Shown one piece after another: positions 38,467 through 51,792 of a stretch of 64,000 nucleotides of DNA. The DNA lies in NCBI RefSeq assembly GCF_008327825.1, contig NZ_AP019827.1:930001-994000 (forward strand). Reading direction: 5' to 3'. The position numbers and the translations under genes are program-made. The first letter of the stretch is position 1. Each line of letters starts with the position of its first letter. This stretch comes from Leptotrichia shahii. Lineage in GTDB: Bacteria > Fusobacteriota > Fusobacteriia > Fusobacteriales > Leptotrichiaceae. Under the pieces are notes generated by a model. It saw nothing but the letters and a program-made list of their open reading frames with translations, made no database searches and was not told the DNA's origin.

Positions 38467-38525
38467 AAAAATATATTAATATTTTATTAAATATTATATA
38501 AAAAAGGTAAATTGAGGTGACGAAA

Positions 38526-40061
38526 ATGGGGAATGAAAGTACAAATATGGAAAATATGTATGAAGGAAAAAATATTGGAATTATACTAGATAAGAAAAAT
38601 CTGGATAATTTTGTAATTCGAGAATTTGTGCTGAATGAAAATATTAATGAACATCAGAAGCTGGAAATGCAGCTGGAAATGGATGAAGAGCAAAGGAAGA
38701 ATCTGGAAAGAATTATTGAAAAGGAAAATGTTGAAATTGAAATTGAACTTTCAGGGTCGAATCAGAATGTCAGAAGGAAGATTTTTTGTGGAATAGTTGA
38801 TTATTTTGAAATATTAGATTATGGAAGTTATGGGTGCAGGATTTTGATGAAGGCGTTTTCTAAAAGTGTGCTTTTTGACAGGAAAAATGAGAAAAAGTAT
38901 CGGGTTTTTCAGGATAGGAATTTAATGTTTTCAGATATAATTGATGAGATTAATAAAGATTATGCTGATAAAAAGCTGGAAATAAAATATTCTGATATTG
39001 CGAAAAAGCAGATTGGCAGTCTTGTTGTGCAGTTTGATGAAACAGATTGGGAATTTTTAGTAAGACTTACTAGTCAGTTGAAAACTGGGTTGTTTGTAGT
39101 TGAGCAAGGGATAATATTGTTTGGAATTGTAGAAATGGGGGAAATTAAGAAGGAAAATAAATATTTTTCAGATTATTCGCTGGTAAGAGATTATAAAAAT
39201 CTATATTATAAAGTGCAGTCAAATAAAGTAATAAATTTGGGAGATACTGTTTCTATTTCTGAAAGCGCTGTAGAAAATGAAGTAAATGATAAAGATTCTA
39301 GTGGGAATAAAAGTAATTTTTCTGTATTAAAAACTAGAATATTTTTGAAGGATTTTATTTTAAAAAGTGAATTTTTAGCAACGGATATGAAGAGTTATTA
39401 TATATTCAAGAAATATAATGAAAAAATAAAAGGGTGCAGGATTGAAGCTAATGTTGAACGGGTATTTGAAGATGGTGGAATTGCGAAAATGGAAGTCAGA
39501 TTTGCAGAAGGGCTGAAAAAAATTGTTCAAGAAAGAAGCAATAGTGAAAGTAATGATAAAGCGTACGATGATTATGGGATAAAAAGATTTCCATTAAGTT
39601 ACCAGACTTTTTATTCACAGACAAATACTGGATTTTTCTGCACTCCTGAAGTAAATGATACTGTGGAAGTTTATTTTCCAAATGAAGACGAGCGATTTGC
39701 AAAAGTGTCGTGGGCAATAAACAATAAAGGAAGTGGAAGATTTAGCGATTATACCAAAAGAAATTTCCAGGTTAATCAGAGTGATTTTAATTTTAGCTTG
39801 AATTTAAACACTTTTGAAGTGAAAACAGCTGAAAAATACAGTGTGGAATCACCAAATATAGTTGAAAATGCAGATAATTTTGTAAATAAGGCTAATCAGA
39901 ACATGATAGTGGCTTCGAATAATTATTTGGGGATAGAGTCGATTGGAGATGCTGATTTTTATGGCTCTAAGATAAATATTATTGGAAAAGAAAAGGAAAT
40001 AACAATGGAATCATTAAGTTCAGATGTAAGAATTAAAGGGAAAAAAGTTCATAGCAATTAA
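38526..40061 (+). CDS. VgrG-like spike / phage late control D-like protein
   Basis: 511-residue protein resembling the spike of contractile injection systems. The N-terminal ~220 residues have the gpD/gp27-like pattern (FVIREFVLNENINEHQKLEM, then ETDWEFLVRLTSQL). The segment FPLSYQTFYSQTNTGFFCTPEVNDTVEVYFPNEDE around 365-400 fits the gp5 OB-fold, followed by WAINNKGSG and a repetitive beta-rich tail. No effector domain is visible. ATG at 38526 is set by GAGGTGA. Own promoter; followed by repeat copy D. Related-looking tube genes lie at 43322-45917. Confidence 0.65.
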   Translation: MGNESTNMENMYEGKNIGIILDKKNLDNFVIREFVLNENINEHQKLEMQLEMDEEQRKNLERIIEKENVEIEIELSGSNQNVRRKIFCGIVDYFEILDYGSYGCRILMKAFSKSVLFDRKNEKKYRVFQDRNLMFSDIIDEINKDYADKKLEIKYSDIAKKQIGSLVVQFDETDWEFLVRLTSQLKTGLFVVEQGIILFGIVEMGEIKKENKYFSDYSLVRDYKNLYYKVQSNKVINLGDTVSISESAVENEVNDKDSSGNKSNFSVLKTRIFLKDFILKSEFLATDMKSYYIFKKYNEKIKGCRIEANVERVFEDGGIAKMEVRFAEGLKKIVQERSNSESNDKAYDDYGIKRFPLSYQTFYSQTNTGFFCTPEVNDTVEVYFPNEDERFAKVSWAINNKGSGRFSDYTKRNFQVNQSDFNFSLNLNTFEVKTAEKYSVESPNIVENADNFVNKANQNMIVASNNYLGIESIGDADFYGSKINIIGKEKEITMESLSSDVRIKGKKVHSN

Positions 40062-43321: not shown

Positions 43322-44599
43322 ATGAATAGAGAAAATGAGATTTTTGAAAAAGAAATGCTTGGAAAAAGTCTAAGAGAAATGTTTTTTGAAATGAATGTGG
43401 AAATGCAGGAGAGGTTTCAGGAAATTAAAGACAGGTTTTTAGAAGTAAAGATTGCTGAAAATTCCGATAATGAAAGCATTTTTGTTGAAACAGTGCTGGT
43501 AAAAAGTGAGGATGTATTTAAAATGGATGGTGTTTTTTTTCCAGTAGCTGATAAAGTGGGTGTTTTTAATGAAAATTATGGACATATTTATTTGGAAAAT
43601 ATTTATTTAAATTTAGATTTATGTAAAATTAATGAGGTTTCTGAAAGGGAATTTGCTGGATGGATAAATATTGATGGAAATAATTACGAAATTAAAGTAA
43701 AAGTTGTAAGGGATAAAAGTTATTTTGATGAAATAAAAAAATTGCACAATTCATTTGAGCTTAATGGAAAAAGCTGGAAAACTCTTAATATGGCACATTT
43801 TATGAGATGGTATAAAGTTGAGCTAGTTGAGTATGATTTTGAAATTGAAAGGGATATTTTGGAAAGAATTCAAAATGGAGATTGTGAGATTACTTATGAT
43901 TTTGAAGAAATTCAGGATAGAGTGCTAAAAAATAGGGAATTACTTTGGAATATTGAAAGAAAAAAGATCATAAGCACCATATTTGTACGTCCAACAAAAA
44001 TTGATTTATCCTTTGAATATACAATAAATTTTGAAGATAACGAGCAAATTTTAGTATCAAATCATCAAAATGAGGATATTGTTTGCTGTTATTACAGCGG
44101 AAAAAATAAATTAAGCATTGTTTCAAAGAAAAATACAGGTGATGTATGGGATATTTTTTCCATAAAGCCAATAGAAAAATGTAGAAAAATGCTTGAAATT
44201 TTTGAAAAAAATAGTGAGAAACAGGAAAATTATTTTCATTTTACGAATTTTAAAAATGAAAGTTTTATTGATAAAATCCAAAAAAAAAATAAAAATACAA
44301 GAAGCCGTGCATTTTTGGAAAAATATTTTTTGGAATATGAGTTTACAAAGGATGAAATTATACTAAAAGATATTAATTTTAAGGAAAATATTGAAGAAAA
44401 TCTGGATATTTATGACTGCAATGAAAATTTTAGGAATGAATTTCAAAGGGAATATTTTGATAAAAAACCTAAATTAAACCTGTTTGTGGAAATTAAGAAT
44501 TTTAATGAATATTCAGAGGACAAAGTAAGTTTTTTAATTTCAGAAATCCAGAATAATTACATAGAATTTGAGTGCAGGGGGTATCTGCATGGCGAATAA
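43322..44599 (+). CDS. Uncharacterised protein of putative injection-system operon (gene 1)
   Basis: 425 residues, acidic and Asn/Lys/Glu-rich, no signal peptide or membrane segment. The start, LREMFFEMNVEMQERFQEIKD, then FPVADKVG, resembles a large poorly described family (sometimes misnamed normocyte-binding protein) that I recall beside VgrG-like genes in Clostridia; this is from memory and not checked. No enzyme motif seen. Probably a structural or baseplate-associated protein. GGAGGGG ribosome site. Overlaps the next gene by 11 bases. Confidence 0.5.
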   Translation: MNRENEIFEKEMLGKSLREMFFEMNVEMQERFQEIKDRFLEVKIAENSDNESIFVETVLVKSEDVFKMDGVFFPVADKVGVFNENYGHIYLENIYLNLDLCKINEVSEREFAGWINIDGNNYEIKVKVVRDKSYFDEIKKLHNSFELNGKSWKTLNMAHFMRWYKVELVEYDFEIERDILERIQNGDCEITYDFEEIQDRVLKNRELLWNIERKKIISTIFVRPTKIDLSFEYTINFEDNEQILVSNHQNEDIVCCYYSGKNKLSIVSKKNTGDVWDIFSIKPIEKCRKMLEIFEKNSEKQENYFHFTNFKNESFIDKIQKKNKNTRSRAFLEKYFLEYEFTKDEIILKDINFKENIEENLDIYDCNENFRNEFQREYFDKKPKLNLFVEIKNFNEYSEDKVSFLISEIQNNYIEFECRGYLHGE

Positions 44600-45425
44600 A
44601 AATAAAAAAGGATATCCGTATATATGGGCAGTTCCTATAAATACACAATTTGAGCTGGAGAATAATGTATCAGCATATATTGAGGTAAATGATGATTTTT
44701 TTTATGATAAATTTGAAATAAAAAAGGTTGTGAAAATAAATCCTTATGTGAGATTTAATAAAATTTTTACTGATTTTGTAAATTATTATGATAATTTTTT
44801 TGAACTTGAAAATAAACTTCAAAAGGATAATAAAATTAAAAATTTGACAACGGAAAATGTTGTTAAAAAAGAATCTAAAATAAGCAGTTTTAGACGCAGA
44901 AAAAATACAATTGACGAATCAAGAGAAAATAAAAAAGAATTTATTTTAAAGGATTTTAAGAAAAATATTGAAAATAATGCAATAAGTTATTTAAGGGAAC
45001 TTGATTTTGCAAGTGGAACGACAGTGATTGACATTTTTTGTGAAAAAATTTCAGAAGATATAAGAAAAGGAATTTTAGGAAAGAATTTAAAAAAATATTT
45101 TTTGCTTTTGAATAGGGAAGAGCAGGAATATGTGGCACTTTTGATCTATAATGAAAAAATTAATAATGTCAATTCTATGAAAAATTTTAAGTTTGGAATT
45201 AAATACTTTTTTTTAGATTCGCTTATTTATAGGGAAAAACATCAAAAAAATAAAATAATAATTTATATAAATAGAGAAAAAAATAAAGAGAATATCGCAA
45301 AAATAAAAACGTTAGAATTGTTATTTCTGGAATTTGGACTGGAATTGAAGATTTTTTGGAAGAATCATTTTGGAGTTGTAAGTGTTGAGGAAACAGTAAA
45401 AATTGATGAAATAGCAGTTTTTTAA
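44589..45425 (+). CDS. Uncharacterised protein of putative injection-system operon (gene 2)
   Basis: 278 residues, basic, strongly Lys/Asn-rich, with a variable charged middle (about 85-125) and a more conserved-looking C-terminal half (LLNREEQEYVALLIYNEKINNVNSMK...). No recognised domain. It may match a family sometimes misannotated as iron-dependent peroxidase in similar clusters, from memory only; no haem or metal motif supports that name. Start at 44589 (ATG, GGGGG upstream) overlaps the end of gene 1, so they are translationally coupled. Confidence 0.45.
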   Translation: MANKNKKGYPYIWAVPINTQFELENNVSAYIEVNDDFFYDKFEIKKVVKINPYVRFNKIFTDFVNYYDNFFELENKLQKDNKIKNLTTENVVKKESKISSFRRRKNTIDESRENKKEFILKDFKKNIENNAISYLRELDFASGTTVIDIFCEKISEDIRKGILGKNLKKYFLLLNREEQEYVALLIYNEKINNVNSMKNFKFGIKYFFLDSLIYREKHQKNKIIIYINREKNKENIAKIKTLELLFLEFGLELKIFWKNHFGVVSVEETVKIDEIAVF

Positions 45426-45446: not shown

Positions 45447-45917
45447 ATGAAATACAGATTAAGAATTAGAGATGAGGAAAGTAAAAAGGAAATAAATGTA
45501 AGTGAAGATGAGATTATCGAAGTAAAATACAAAATTGGACTTGCAGAAGATACAAATTTAGCAAATAGCAGAAGCACAGTAGAAATGGAAATAACTGGAA
45601 AAATTATTTCAAATTTGGAAAATACTGGAAATAATTTAAATTCAGAAAATAAAAGTGTGAATGATGACTTGTATGAAAGAAATAAAAAAAATATAATAGA
45701 CTTGGTGGAATGGGCTGAGTCATATTTACAAAAAAGTGATTATAGAAATTTGGAAATGTTTGTTGATTTGGGATCAAATAAAAAAATGGATTTGAAGTTT
45801 ACAAATATGTTTGTGTATAAGTTTTCGCAGGAGATGAGTATTGAGAAAGGGATAGGGATTTTTAAACTGAAGTTGAGACAAAAATTTCATCAGAAAAATA
45901 AATTGGACATAAAATAA
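45447..45917 (+). CDS. Hcp / phage tail-tube-like protein
   Basis: 156 residues. The layout fits small tube proteins of T6SS-like or phage-like systems: N-terminal strands with DTNLANSRSTVEMEITGKI, a helix with LVEWAESYLQKSDYRNLEM, and a C-terminal strand pair LKFTNMFVYKFSQEMSIEKGIGIFKLKLRQK. The FTNxFVxxxxxExxxxEGxGxFxLxxRQK pattern is the best evidence. It has no signal peptide. A Ser/Asn-rich loop (about 57-75) looks inserted. Gene 3 of the operon; GGGGTGGG ribosome site. Confidence 0.5.
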   Translation: MKYRLRIRDEESKKEINVSEDEIIEVKYKIGLAEDTNLANSRSTVEMEITGKIISNLENTGNNLNSENKSVNDDLYERNKKNIIDLVEWAESYLQKSDYRNLEMFVDLGSNKKMDLKFTNMFVYKFSQEMSIEKGIGIFKLKLRQKFHQKNKLDIK

Positions 45918-48598: not shown

Positions 48599-48652
48599 AT
48601 CATATTGAAAATTAAAAAAGCAAAAATGAAAAAAGAAAAGAGGACAGTTAAG

Positions 48653-49753
48653 TTGAAAAGAGCGGTTATATTGGATACGAGTGCGATTATGTATAGAAGC
48701 CATTTTGCATTAATGGGAATGAAAAATAGCAGCGGAATGTCTACTGGAGCTACATTTGGTTTTATTAATACTTTAGAAAATGTGATTAGGGAGTTTAAAC
48801 CTGATTATTTAGTGGCTTGTCTGGATGTGAAAAGGGACGAGTTAGAGAGAACTGAAGAACTGGAGACTTATAAAGCACATAGGGAAAGTATGCCAGAAGA
48901 GCTTGTTATGCAAATTGATACTATTATGAAGGTTTTGGATGGATATAGGATTCCCAAATATAAGAAGGCTGGACAGGAAGCGGATGATGTTATTGCCACC
49001 TTCGCTACAAAATTTTCTAATGATGCTGATGAACAAATTGAGGTTTTTGTAATAACTGGAGATAAGGATTTGGCACAGCTTGTGGATGGCAAAATTAATA
49101 TTGCTTTGCTTGGAAAAGGGGATAAAAATTCTGCATTTAAGCATATAAAGACTGATGAAGATGTGGTTGAGTATTTGGGAGTTACACCTGATAAGATTCC
49201 TGACTTATTTGGGCTTATGGGAGATAAGTCGGATGGGATTCCAGGAGTTACGGGGATTGGTCCTAAAAATGGTGTGAAACTTATTACAGCTTATGGAAAC
49301 TTGGAAGGAATTTATGAAAATATTGAGGAAATAAAAGGGAAACAGAAAGAAAAATTACTGACTGATAAGGAAAATGCCTTTATAAGTCGGGAACTTGCAA
49401 CTGTGAAAAGGGAGCTTGATGTTGAATACGATAAAAATAAATTGAAATTTGAGGAAAAGGATTTTGACAGCCTTTTGAAACTTTATGAAGAGCTTGATTT
49501 TAAAAGATTTTCTAAAGCTGTGGAAGAAGAAAAGGAAAGATTCTTGCAAAATGGAAATCAAAAGGAACTTACTGAAGAAGAGAAGTTAGTTTTAGAAAAA
49601 AATAAAAAAATTGCTGAAGAAAAATTGGAAAAGAGAGACTTGAAAGAGAAAAAGTTGAAAAGCAGGAATTGGAGTATGATAAGGAAAATCCGATTTTTGA
49701 TGGAATTTCACATTTTTATGAGCATGTGGAGTACGAACATAATTCAGAAATAG
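48653..49753 (+). CDS. polA: DNA polymerase I, N-terminal part (5' nuclease), frame-interrupted
   Basis: Holds the 5'-3' flap nuclease of Pol I: RAVILDTSAIMYRSHFAL, GQEADDVIATFA, ITGDKDLAQLVD and GLMGDKSDGIPGVTGIGPKNG are all intact. The TTG at 48653 is preferred because of the upstream AAGAGGA and because KRAVILD is the expected N-terminus; upstream in-frame starts (48605, 48626) lack a ribosome site. The correct frame is lost near the A5 run at 49649-49653; from there to 49753 the translation (ending SMIRKIRFLMEFHIF...) is out of frame. Confidence 0.85.
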   Translation: MKRAVILDTSAIMYRSHFALMGMKNSSGMSTGATFGFINTLENVIREFKPDYLVACLDVKRDELERTEELETYKAHRESMPEELVMQIDTIMKVLDGYRIPKYKKAGQEADDVIATFATKFSNDADEQIEVFVITGDKDLAQLVDGKINIALLGKGDKNSAFKHIKTDEDVVEYLGVTPDKIPDLFGLMGDKSDGIPGVTGIGPKNGVKLITAYGNLEGIYENIEEIKGKQKEKLLTDKENAFISRELATVKRELDVEYDKNKLKFEEKDFDSLLKLYEELDFKRFSKAVEEEKERFLQNGNQKELTEEEKLVLEKNKKIAEEKLEKRDLKEKKLKSRNWSMIRKIRFLMEFHIFMSMWSTNIIQK

Positions 49754-51792
49754 ATAAAAAAATTGATGAAATTCAAGTTTTAAAAGAAAAGTTGACAATA
49801 GAATATGAGGCTCAGAAGAAAAAGGCAGAAGAGATTGCATTAGAAACTCAGAAAACTGAAAAAACTAAGAAAATTAAAGATGAAAAAGTGTATTTTGAGA
49901 AAAATTATGGAAAAGTTATTAGCTGGAATGATGCTTATTCTATGATTGAGAAAATGGATAAAAAAGTGGCTATTTTTGAGAATATGCTTGGACTTTCCAT
50001 TTGTGATGAAAAAACGAATATTGTGCTTTTGGACAGTGAACTTCAAGATATTTTGCAAAATGGAAAACAAGAAAATGTAGAATCTGGAGTACAAATTAAC
50101 TTGTTTAGTTTAAGTAATAATGTTGATGAAAAGAAAGATAATAAAAAAAATATTGAAAATATTTATAGATTGCTAAGTGAAAAAGAAATTATCGCTTATA
50201 ATGTGAAAGAATATATGAAAAATGGGGAAAGCGAGTATTTTGGATATTCTGTTGGCGGTAAAACTTATGGGATAAATAATGACAGGTTTGGAATAAAATG
50301 TACTGAATATTTTGATATTTTACTTGCAAGATATGTACTTGGGACAGAAAGTTTACAAGAAATTGAGGAAATAATTCTAGATGAGTTTGGTGTTGAGATT
50401 GCAACTTTTGAGGAAAAATTTAAGAAGGAGCGAAGAAAGAAGGATTTTAGCGATGTTTCAGATGATGTGATTTGTGAGTTTTTGTCAAAGAGAACGTTTT
50501 TTATTTATAAATTGGAAACAATTTTTAGAAACAGATTGCAAAATGAGCAATTTCTAAATATATTTGACAAGCTAGAAAGTCGATTAATACCAGTATTGGC
50601 ACAAATGGAGGAAACGGGGATAAAAATTGATAAGAAATATTTCAGTGAATTTCAAAATGAACTTGAGCAAAAGTTAAGTACGCTTGAAAATGAGATTCAC
50701 GAACTTGCCAATGAAAAATTTAATATTGATTCGCCACAACAATTAGGGGAAGTTTTGTTTGAAAAATTACAGCTTCCATCAGGCAAAAAGACAAAAACTG
50801 GATATTCAACAAATGTGGAAGTTCTGGAAATGATTGCTAACAATGGAGAATTGACAGAAGACAAACGGATGATTGGGAAAAAGTTGCTGGAATACAGGGC
50901 TTATAAGAAATTATTGTCAACTTATATTGAGCCAATTCCAAAACTGGCGGATAAAGATGACAGGATTCATACGACTTTTAACCAAAATGGAACATCTACT
51001 GGACGACTTTCATCGGCAAATCCAAATTTACAGAATATTCCTGTAAGAACAGATGATGGAATAAGGATTCGTACAGGTTTTGTTGCAAAGGAAGGGCATA
51101 GTTTGATTTCGTTTGACTATTCACAAATTGAATTGAGAGTTTTGGCGGAATTGTCAAAAGACAGGCATTTGGTGCAGGCGTATCAGGATAATCAGGATTT
51201 GCATAACCTGACAGCGAGAAAGATATTTTTCAAAACTGAAGAAGATGAAATTTCACGGCACGAGAGAAGTATTGCAAAAGTAATTAATTTTAGTATTCTT
51301 TATGGGAAAACACCGTTTGGACTGTCAAAGGAACTGGGGATTACGGTTCAGGAGGCTTCTCAATATATTACAACATATTTTGAGGAATATCCGAGAGTCA
51401 GAAAATTTTTGGATATTGTGACAGAAACGGCTAAACTTCATGGTTTTGTGGAAACTTTTTATGGTACGAGAAGATATATTAGCGGAATTAATGCGACAAA
51501 TAAAAATGTACAGGCACAGGCTGTAAGAATGGCGGTAAATACTGTTGTTCAGGGAACGGCGGCAAATATTATAAAAAAAGTTATGATTGAACTTTATGAG
51601 GAATTTAAAAATGATGAAAATATCAAAATGCTTCTTCAAGTTCACGATGAACTGATTTTTGAAGTTCGTGATGAATTTGCTAAGGAATATATGGAAAAAA
51701 TTGAAAAAATTATGGAAAAAACGGTTAAATTTAAGAAAGTTCCATTAAAAGCTAATGGAAGTGTAGCTAAAAATTGGGGATTATTGAAATAA
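49669..51792 (+). CDS. polA: DNA polymerase I, C-terminal part (polymerase), frame-interrupted
   Basis: Continues Pol I one base out of phase; its frame is open from 49618 and joins naturally as ...KEKKVEKQELEYDKENPIFD. After a long charged linker (to about residue 75) comes an exonuclease-like domain without the catalytic DxE (VAIFENMLGLSI), then a complete polymerase A domain: TSTGRLSSANPNLQNIP, SFDYSQIELRVLAEL, FSILYGKTPFGL and LQVHDELIFEV. A TTG at 49669 might restart translation, but one continuous ~1,050-residue protein is the likely ancestor. Confidence 0.85.
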   Translation: MEYDKENPIFDGISHFYEHVEYEHNSEIDKKIDEIQVLKEKLTIEYEAQKKKAEEIALETQKTEKTKKIKDEKVYFEKNYGKVISWNDAYSMIEKMDKKVAIFENMLGLSICDEKTNIVLLDSELQDILQNGKQENVESGVQINLFSLSNNVDEKKDNKKNIENIYRLLSEKEIIAYNVKEYMKNGESEYFGYSVGGKTYGINNDRFGIKCTEYFDILLARYVLGTESLQEIEEIILDEFGVEIATFEEKFKKERRKKDFSDVSDDVICEFLSKRTFFIYKLETIFRNRLQNEQFLNIFDKLESRLIPVLAQMEETGIKIDKKYFSEFQNELEQKLSTLENEIHELANEKFNIDSPQQLGEVLFEKLQLPSGKKTKTGYSTNVEVLEMIANNGELTEDKRMIGKKLLEYRAYKKLLSTYIEPIPKLADKDDRIHTTFNQNGTSTGRLSSANPNLQNIPVRTDDGIRIRTGFVAKEGHSLISFDYSQIELRVLAELSKDRHLVQAYQDNQDLHNLTARKIFFKTEEDEISRHERSIAKVINFSILYGKTPFGLSKELGITVQEASQYITTYFEEYPRVRKFLDIVTETAKLHGFVETFYGTRRYISGINATNKNVQAQAVRMAVNTVVQGTAANIIKKVMIELYEEFKNDENIKMLLQVHDELIFEVRDEFAKEYMEKIEKIMEKTVKFKKVPLKANGSVAKNWGLLK

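Follow-up and report, generated by a model that had tools for sequence, protein, structure and literature searches.

What P1 and P2 are for is the question raised by two overlapping genes of Leptotrichia shahii, neither of which has a recognisable family and which together stand directly ahead of a gene for a tube-like protein. The pair lies in a 64,000-nucleotide stretch of contig NZ_AP019827.1 (G000:C1:930001-994000; G and L numbers designate genomes and loci throughout), referred to here as the window, from a genome of 2.16 Mb. The results described below make it probable that P1 and P2 form the baseplate wedge of a divergent contractile-type injection system, with P1 resembling TssF of the type VI secretion system (T6SS) or gp6 of phage T4 and P2 resembling TssG or gp7. 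The two genes, and two others of the window on which the argument turns, are as follows.

P1: 43322-44599, plus strand, open reading frame (ORF) with ATG start, 425 amino acids (aa); proposed TssF/gp6-like baseplate wedge subunit.
P2: 44589-45425, plus strand, ORF with ATG start, 278 aa; proposed TssG/gp7-like baseplate wedge subunit.
Tube-like protein: 45447-45917, plus strand, 156 aa; proposed tube initiator or adaptor ring adjoining the hub.
VgrG-like hub/spike protein: 38517-40061, plus strand, 514 aa; match to Phage_GPD.

The tight packing described in the original prediction was confirmed: positions 44589-44599, 11 bases, are common to the P1 and P2 ORFs, and the tube-like gene starts (ATG at 45447) 21 bases past the end of P2 at 45425. 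The P2 start was taken as the ATG at 44589; the ORF-listing program favours an upstream TTG at 44568. A purine-rich stretch is found upstream of each of the three starts. Because the same spacing recurs in four further loci of the genus (L002, L003, L004 and L009) and P2 lies directly 3' of P1 in 27 of 30 per-genome loci (L001 being the window's own), the arrangement is not a product of chance; the exceptions are a split inside one cluster (L014), two intervening genes (L018) and a short contig edge (L026). A tube-like gene follows P2 in 20 of the 30 loci. Identity among P1 homologues ranges from 90% down to about 20%, and P1 and P2 are therefore real genes. The 11-base overlap would couple the synthesis of the two wedge partners.

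Gene neighbourhoods of the homologues were consistently tied to tube-like and VgrG-like genes, an association whose absence the original prediction had named as speaking against it. In relatives the genes form a single cluster (e.g., L042-L044, and L096 with L050), which begins with a candidate sheath protein of about 720 aa (Y714), a 145-aa tube-like protein, X250, DnaJ and two FHA proteins, continues with a PP2C/TPR protein, a Ser/Thr kinase, a large Hsp70-like protein (about 860-900 aa), P1 and P2, and ends with one or two further tube-like proteins, VgrG and then probable cargo genes. Several relatives (e.g., L011, L012, L025, L031-L033 and L035) have the VgrG homologue directly 3' of the tube gene. 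Beyond the phylum, homologues of P1, P2, tube, Hsp70-like, FHA, PP2C and VgrG proteins share one cluster in Clostridium and Lachnoanaerobaculum (L106-L108), and the sheath candidate shares it as well, although the L107 stretch examined stops short of any and L108 covers only the end of the sheath candidate. Clostridium thailandense and two Lachnoanaerobaculum were the only such matches in a single contig scan that requires near-exact short motifs, and further carriers may exist.

Distribution was followed in 96 genomes of the order Fusobacteriales, with P1 called at E <= 0.01 and P2 at E <= 0.001. P1 was present in 32 genomes and P2 in 33; all 32 P1 genomes carried P2, and G091 alone had P2 without detected P1. 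The sheath-candidate family was found in 34 genomes, a count that takes in G074, where two short pieces remain, and G049, with a fragment confined to the C-terminal 190 positions, and the Hsp70-like protein in 31. Both followed P1 closely, the sheath candidate occurring in 30/32 genomes with P1 versus 4/64 without it and the Hsp70-like protein in 29/32 versus 2/64. Fisher values for these associations take no account of relatedness among the genomes. Counted by genus, presence of P1 and of the sheath candidate was concordant in 26 of 27, and the P1-P2 system was retained in 15 of the 27. G073, G074 and G076, three genomes that share the window's genus, are without P1, P2 and the Hsp70-like protein; the two sheath-candidate remnants of G074 lie at G074:C1:1178572-1178751, and this genome has probably lost the system.

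Structures of P1 and P2 were predicted with AlphaFold2 and searched with Foldseek, whose 1000 best chains per model were then covered by VIA realignment. The top VIA row for P1 was 6n38_I, a chain from the TssK-TssF-TssG subcomplex of the T6SS (Z 7.7 over 343 aligned residues, root-mean-square deviation (rmsd) 10.7), with P1 residues 19-425 laid on chain residues 47-571; the next row scored Z 6.6. According to the description of this complex, the domains of TssF span residues 47 to 587, the TssG construct residues 64-366 and the TssK construct residues 1-315 (PMC6300606), and 6n38_I must therefore, by its residue range, be TssF. In that account TssF has a helical N-terminus, a beta-barrel middle and a C-terminal part in which helices accompany a mixed sheet; TssG has this layout minus the beta middle. 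The predicted P1 structure has a like order of elements (a long helix at 3-41, a strand-rich region at 56-281 and an alpha/beta end), and P2, like TssG, would be without the beta middle, which fits its shorter length. T4 gp6-type chains were also among the P1 rows (9f4a_AT, 5hx2_E and 5iv5_A; Z 5.5-5.7).

For P2, whose N-terminal half was modelled at low confidence, the first five VIA rows were all contractile-tail baseplate chains (8kea_c, 7yfz_C, 8v3w_4, 9gb2_M and 9cuy_O; Z 5.7-6.6), their sources being A-1(L), Pam3, diffocin, phiCD508 and PhiTE. Contractile-tail chains made up 17 of the best 50 VIA rows and 14 of the Foldseek top 50, and in a search of viral models the top 50 included 17 viral matches with a specific name, of which 14 were called tail or baseplate. 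Residues 316-424 of P1 and 195-261 of P2, both C-terminal, fall on one and the same stretch of 5iv5_A (328-412 and 338-412, respectively), a chain that we take from its length to be gp6; sharing of this stretch by the two models is as expected of TssF/TssG partners. The case for a wedge is that two partners independently point to both partners of one known complex, and wedge-type folds for P1 and P2 are supported by prediction.

A number of results weigh against this assignment. Both models are weak: that of P1 has a predicted local distance difference test score (pLDDT) of 68 and a predicted template modelling score of 0.59 from 8 sequences, and that of P2 a pLDDT of 59 from 9 sequences, with confident positions only at about residues 143-262. 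Foldseek returned no significant match for P1 (best E 0.12) or P2 (best E 0.063). By the tool's own note, VIA Z values below 8 may reflect a common arrangement, the best P1 alignment carries the large rmsd given above, and most of the remaining P1 rows were unrelated domains (cation-transporter, ribosomal-protein) aligned over residues ~312-425 only; each structural score, taken alone, is compatible with a chance arrangement. The P1 and P2 profiles showed no similarity to each other (hhalign E 0.47), and both proteins are shorter than TssF and TssG and without sequence similarity to them. The TssF family (PF05947) was not matched by P1 and exceeded the cut-off in 0/96 genomes of the order, with an E. 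coli control positive; TssG (PF06996) gave no match in P2 or elsewhere in G000, and neither TssK (PF05936) nor TssE/gp25 (PF04965) was found in G000. Comparison of the 720-aa sheath candidate with two phage sheath profiles showed no similarity (E 0.62 and 0.24). Membership of P1 and P2 in the TssF and TssG sequence families was accordingly rejected, and because these sequence tests gave nothing the two are classed by their probable function, as working like TssF and TssG, and not by family. The original prediction of new baseplate parts is well supported.

Other sequence searches returned little. P1, P2 and the tube-like protein had no family match in Pfam or NCBIfam, the 19 P2 members searched against PHROGs (P2 only) received no name, PDB sequences gave no match to profiles A1-A6, PLSDB plasmids held no relative of P1, and IMG/VR viral contigs held none of P1, P2 or the sheath candidate. 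The CxxCH haem motif is absent from both P1 and P2, as had been claimed, and identity as a haem enzyme was rejected on this ground. Hydrophobic stretches of membrane type were likewise absent from the two proteins (best 19-residue Kyte-Doolittle means 0.83 and 1.05). A search of the window's own genome for the tube-like family found exactly two members, the 156-aa protein and its 145-aa paralogue at G000:C1:1173623-1174042 (alignment A6); the gene position of the 156-aa protein suggests that it is a tube protein.

In the genome of the window the set is dispersed, with VgrG and P1-P2-tube in the window itself, where three minus-strand housekeeping genes stand between the VgrG-like gene and P1, and the remaining genes at three other places:

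About 754-762 kb of G000 (L145): sheath candidate, X250 and a 1230-aa DUF4280+CHAP protein.
1173.6 kb of G000: main tube paralogue (145 aa).
1815-1825 kb of G000 (L081): DnaJ, both FHA proteins, two PP2C-family homologues (of which Pfam names one), kinase and Hsp70-like protein.

Because these loci are united in relatives and their genes co-occur, we infer that they form one machine. Its hub is of VgrG type by Phage_GPD (1.5e-7, over the Pfam cut-off; NCBIfam TIGR03361 (VgrG) matched at 1.3e-9, below cut-off), and a PAAR-like tip is given by DUF4280 (2.5e-13) in the 1230-aa protein at about 754-758 kb (L145:6149-9841), which also has a CHAP domain, adjoins the sheath candidate and is likely a cell-wall-cutting cargo. 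DUF4280 has a PAAR-like fold (PMC5014421). X250 may be a distant replacement for the missing TssK and gp25 families. At first impression X250 resembles TssK, and the C-terminus of the sheath candidate the phage sheath signature; no weight is placed on either likeness.

The 720-aa protein itself, encoded at G000:C1:758605-760761, had no Pfam, NCBIfam or PDB-sequence match, and the phage sheath family PF04984 had none in G000. Its gene is immediately 5' of the main tube gene in L032, L045, L082, L090, L096, L106, L152 and L153; a sheath gene followed by a tube gene is the usual order, and the 720-aa protein would be the sheath. At L151:8164-8754 an N-terminal fragment of it adjoins a full-length copy, a partial duplication.

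The Hsp70-like core protein carries the motifs IDFGT.NT and IIDCGGGTTDLA and aligns with the genome's own DnaK (hhalign E 7.7e-5, probability 62%) with the phosphate-binding motifs in register; it has no match to Pfam HSP70 (PF00012) or to PDB sequences. In two small genomes of the family it is without both phosphate-binding motifs (L090:9486-11726 and L093:9309-11498), which suggests from the sequence a structural, non-ATPase protein there. Because a DnaJ gene shares the cluster with the Hsp70-like protein, one may reasonably guess at a chaperone-type cycle of the two that takes over from ClpV; Pfam named neither ClpV nor TssJLM among the cluster proteins scanned, and no genome-wide search was aimed at them.

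Against this background the other explanations can be weighed. P1 and P2 might be effector-loading adaptors or chaperones for VgrG, in a role akin to the T6SS adaptor families, and they do stand directly ahead of VgrG in many loci; in G071, G087 and G089 extra P1 copies adjoin VgrG and genes for probable cargo. This is nonetheless unlikely: most genomes have a single conserved P1-P2 pair alongside the core genes, the extra P1 copies of G071 sit among second copies of the sheath candidate, FHA, PP2C, kinase and Hsp70-like genes (L049, L086 and L152), the P2 model resembles baseplate chains, and the top match of P1 is a T6SS baseplate chain. The original prediction had offered new baseplate or chaperone components; the baseplate part is upheld by the tube and VgrG association and by the structure-model matches of P1 and P2, and the chaperone part gains nothing from the evidence.

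A non-contractile export tube, with P1 and P2 as a docking ring and the 720-aa protein as a scaffold or cap, would account for a protein that has no profile similarity to two phage sheath families and no sequence match to solved structures. It is improbable given that the 720-aa gene lies directly ahead of the main tube gene in relatives and that wedge-like folds, as predicted for P1 and P2, belong to contractile tails. Very improbable is a prophage in decay, or a phage tail or tailocin of the ordinary kind: the tube-like, VgrG-like and baseplate-like proteins are of phage origin and P1 is broken in one strain (G070), but viral contigs hold no relatives of the key proteins, conservation extends to the accompanying kinase, phosphatase, FHA, DnaJ and Hsp70-like genes, and the loci are scattered amid housekeeping genes and retained in more than half of the genera. 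A prophage remnant was rejected on the lack of viral-contig relatives and the wide retention.

Under the favoured assignment of P1 and P2 as a baseplate wedge, each wedge would be a heterotrimer of two P1 and one P2, joined by their N-terminal helices and C-terminal alpha/beta domains, and a ring of six wedges would enclose the VgrG trimer. The tube-like protein of the window would form the first ring on the hub, and the main tube and the sheath candidate would polymerise from the wedge platform and fire VgrG with its PAAR-like (DUF4280) cargo. The 2:1 stoichiometry, the contraction and the order of assembly are inferred.

Some genomes may depart from this plan. P1 is in tandem (P1-P1-P2) in G089 and G087 (L036 and L039), and G071 has two P1 genes ahead of VgrG with P2 about 10 kb further on (L049 and L086). 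In a tree, G089 and G087 contribute their first copies to one clade and their second copies, with L037, to another, with support of 100/99 each. TssF is present twice per T6SS wedge (PMC6300606), and for this reason the tandem genes suggest, by analogy, a wedge whose two TssF-type subunits differ, which we offer as a prediction. A wider reading, that the system is a separate contractile lineage common to double-membrane Fusobacteria and single-membrane Clostridia in which a dedicated DnaJ/Hsp70-like pair under FHA-kinase-PP2C control replaces the ClpV cycle and some members build an asymmetric wedge from three genes (two for distinct TssF-like proteins and one for a TssG-like protein, as against the usual two-gene 2:1 wedge), is possible as a whole, at somewhat less than even chances.

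Four known systems come closest. Like TssF and TssG of the T6SS (6n38; PMC6300606), P1 and P2 are an adjacent gene pair with the larger first, and a VgrG hub and PAAR-like proteins are also in this genome; unlike the T6SS, the genome is without TssK or gp25 families, and the set has a conserved DnaJ and large Hsp70-like protein and occurs also in single-membrane Clostridia. The phage (gp6)2-gp7 wedge and its relatives (T4, diffocin, phiCD508, Pam3 and A-1(L)) hold P2's best structural matches and the one gp6-chain stretch to which both C-terminal domains align, but P1 and P2 have no relatives on phage contigs and the genome is without PF04984. Extracellular contractile injection systems (CIS) have more than one tube paralogue, one of them adjoining the hub in a tube-initiator arrangement. 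This is also the case here, as in AlgoCIS and the Streptomyces CIS, and P2 has weak matches to such systems (7aeb_G, Z 4.2; 9gtp_A, Z 4.0); they differ in that FHA, PP2C, kinase, DnaJ and Hsp70-like genes are conserved here and no gp25 family is in the genome. Phage-like translocation systems were suggested for Gram-positives in 2016 from DUF4280 proteins (PMC5349215), in a paper that identifies no Gram-positive genes for a sheath, tube or baseplate and leaves Fusobacteria unmentioned; the present system is alike in its candidate cargo, with DUF4280 and CHAP, and in its relatives in Clostridia. Searches of the open-access literature found no description of a system of this kind for either Fusobacteria or Clostridia, and it may be described elsewhere.

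If P1 and P2 are indeed a wedge, about a third of the Fusobacteriales genomes examined, including oral Leptotrichia, and some Clostridia would carry a nanomachine of weapon or delivery type, missed by routine annotation because nearly all of its structural proteins are without a family model. The 2016 question of phage-like translocation in DUF4280 bacteria without a T6SS would then have a concrete answer; the system would also show how little sequence a TssF/TssG wedge must retain, and provide a test case for an Hsp70-based cycle instead of ClpV.

Two broken genes were also recorded. In Leptotrichia hongkongensis JMUB5056 (G070), P1 is split into three reading frames (L101:8736-10011) beside P2, tube and VgrG genes that appear intact, and may be a decayed copy or a sequencing error. 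In the window, DNA polymerase I (named by eye) occupies 48605-51792 in two overlapping frames (48605-49753 and 49669-51792), which suggests a frameshift or a sequencing error.
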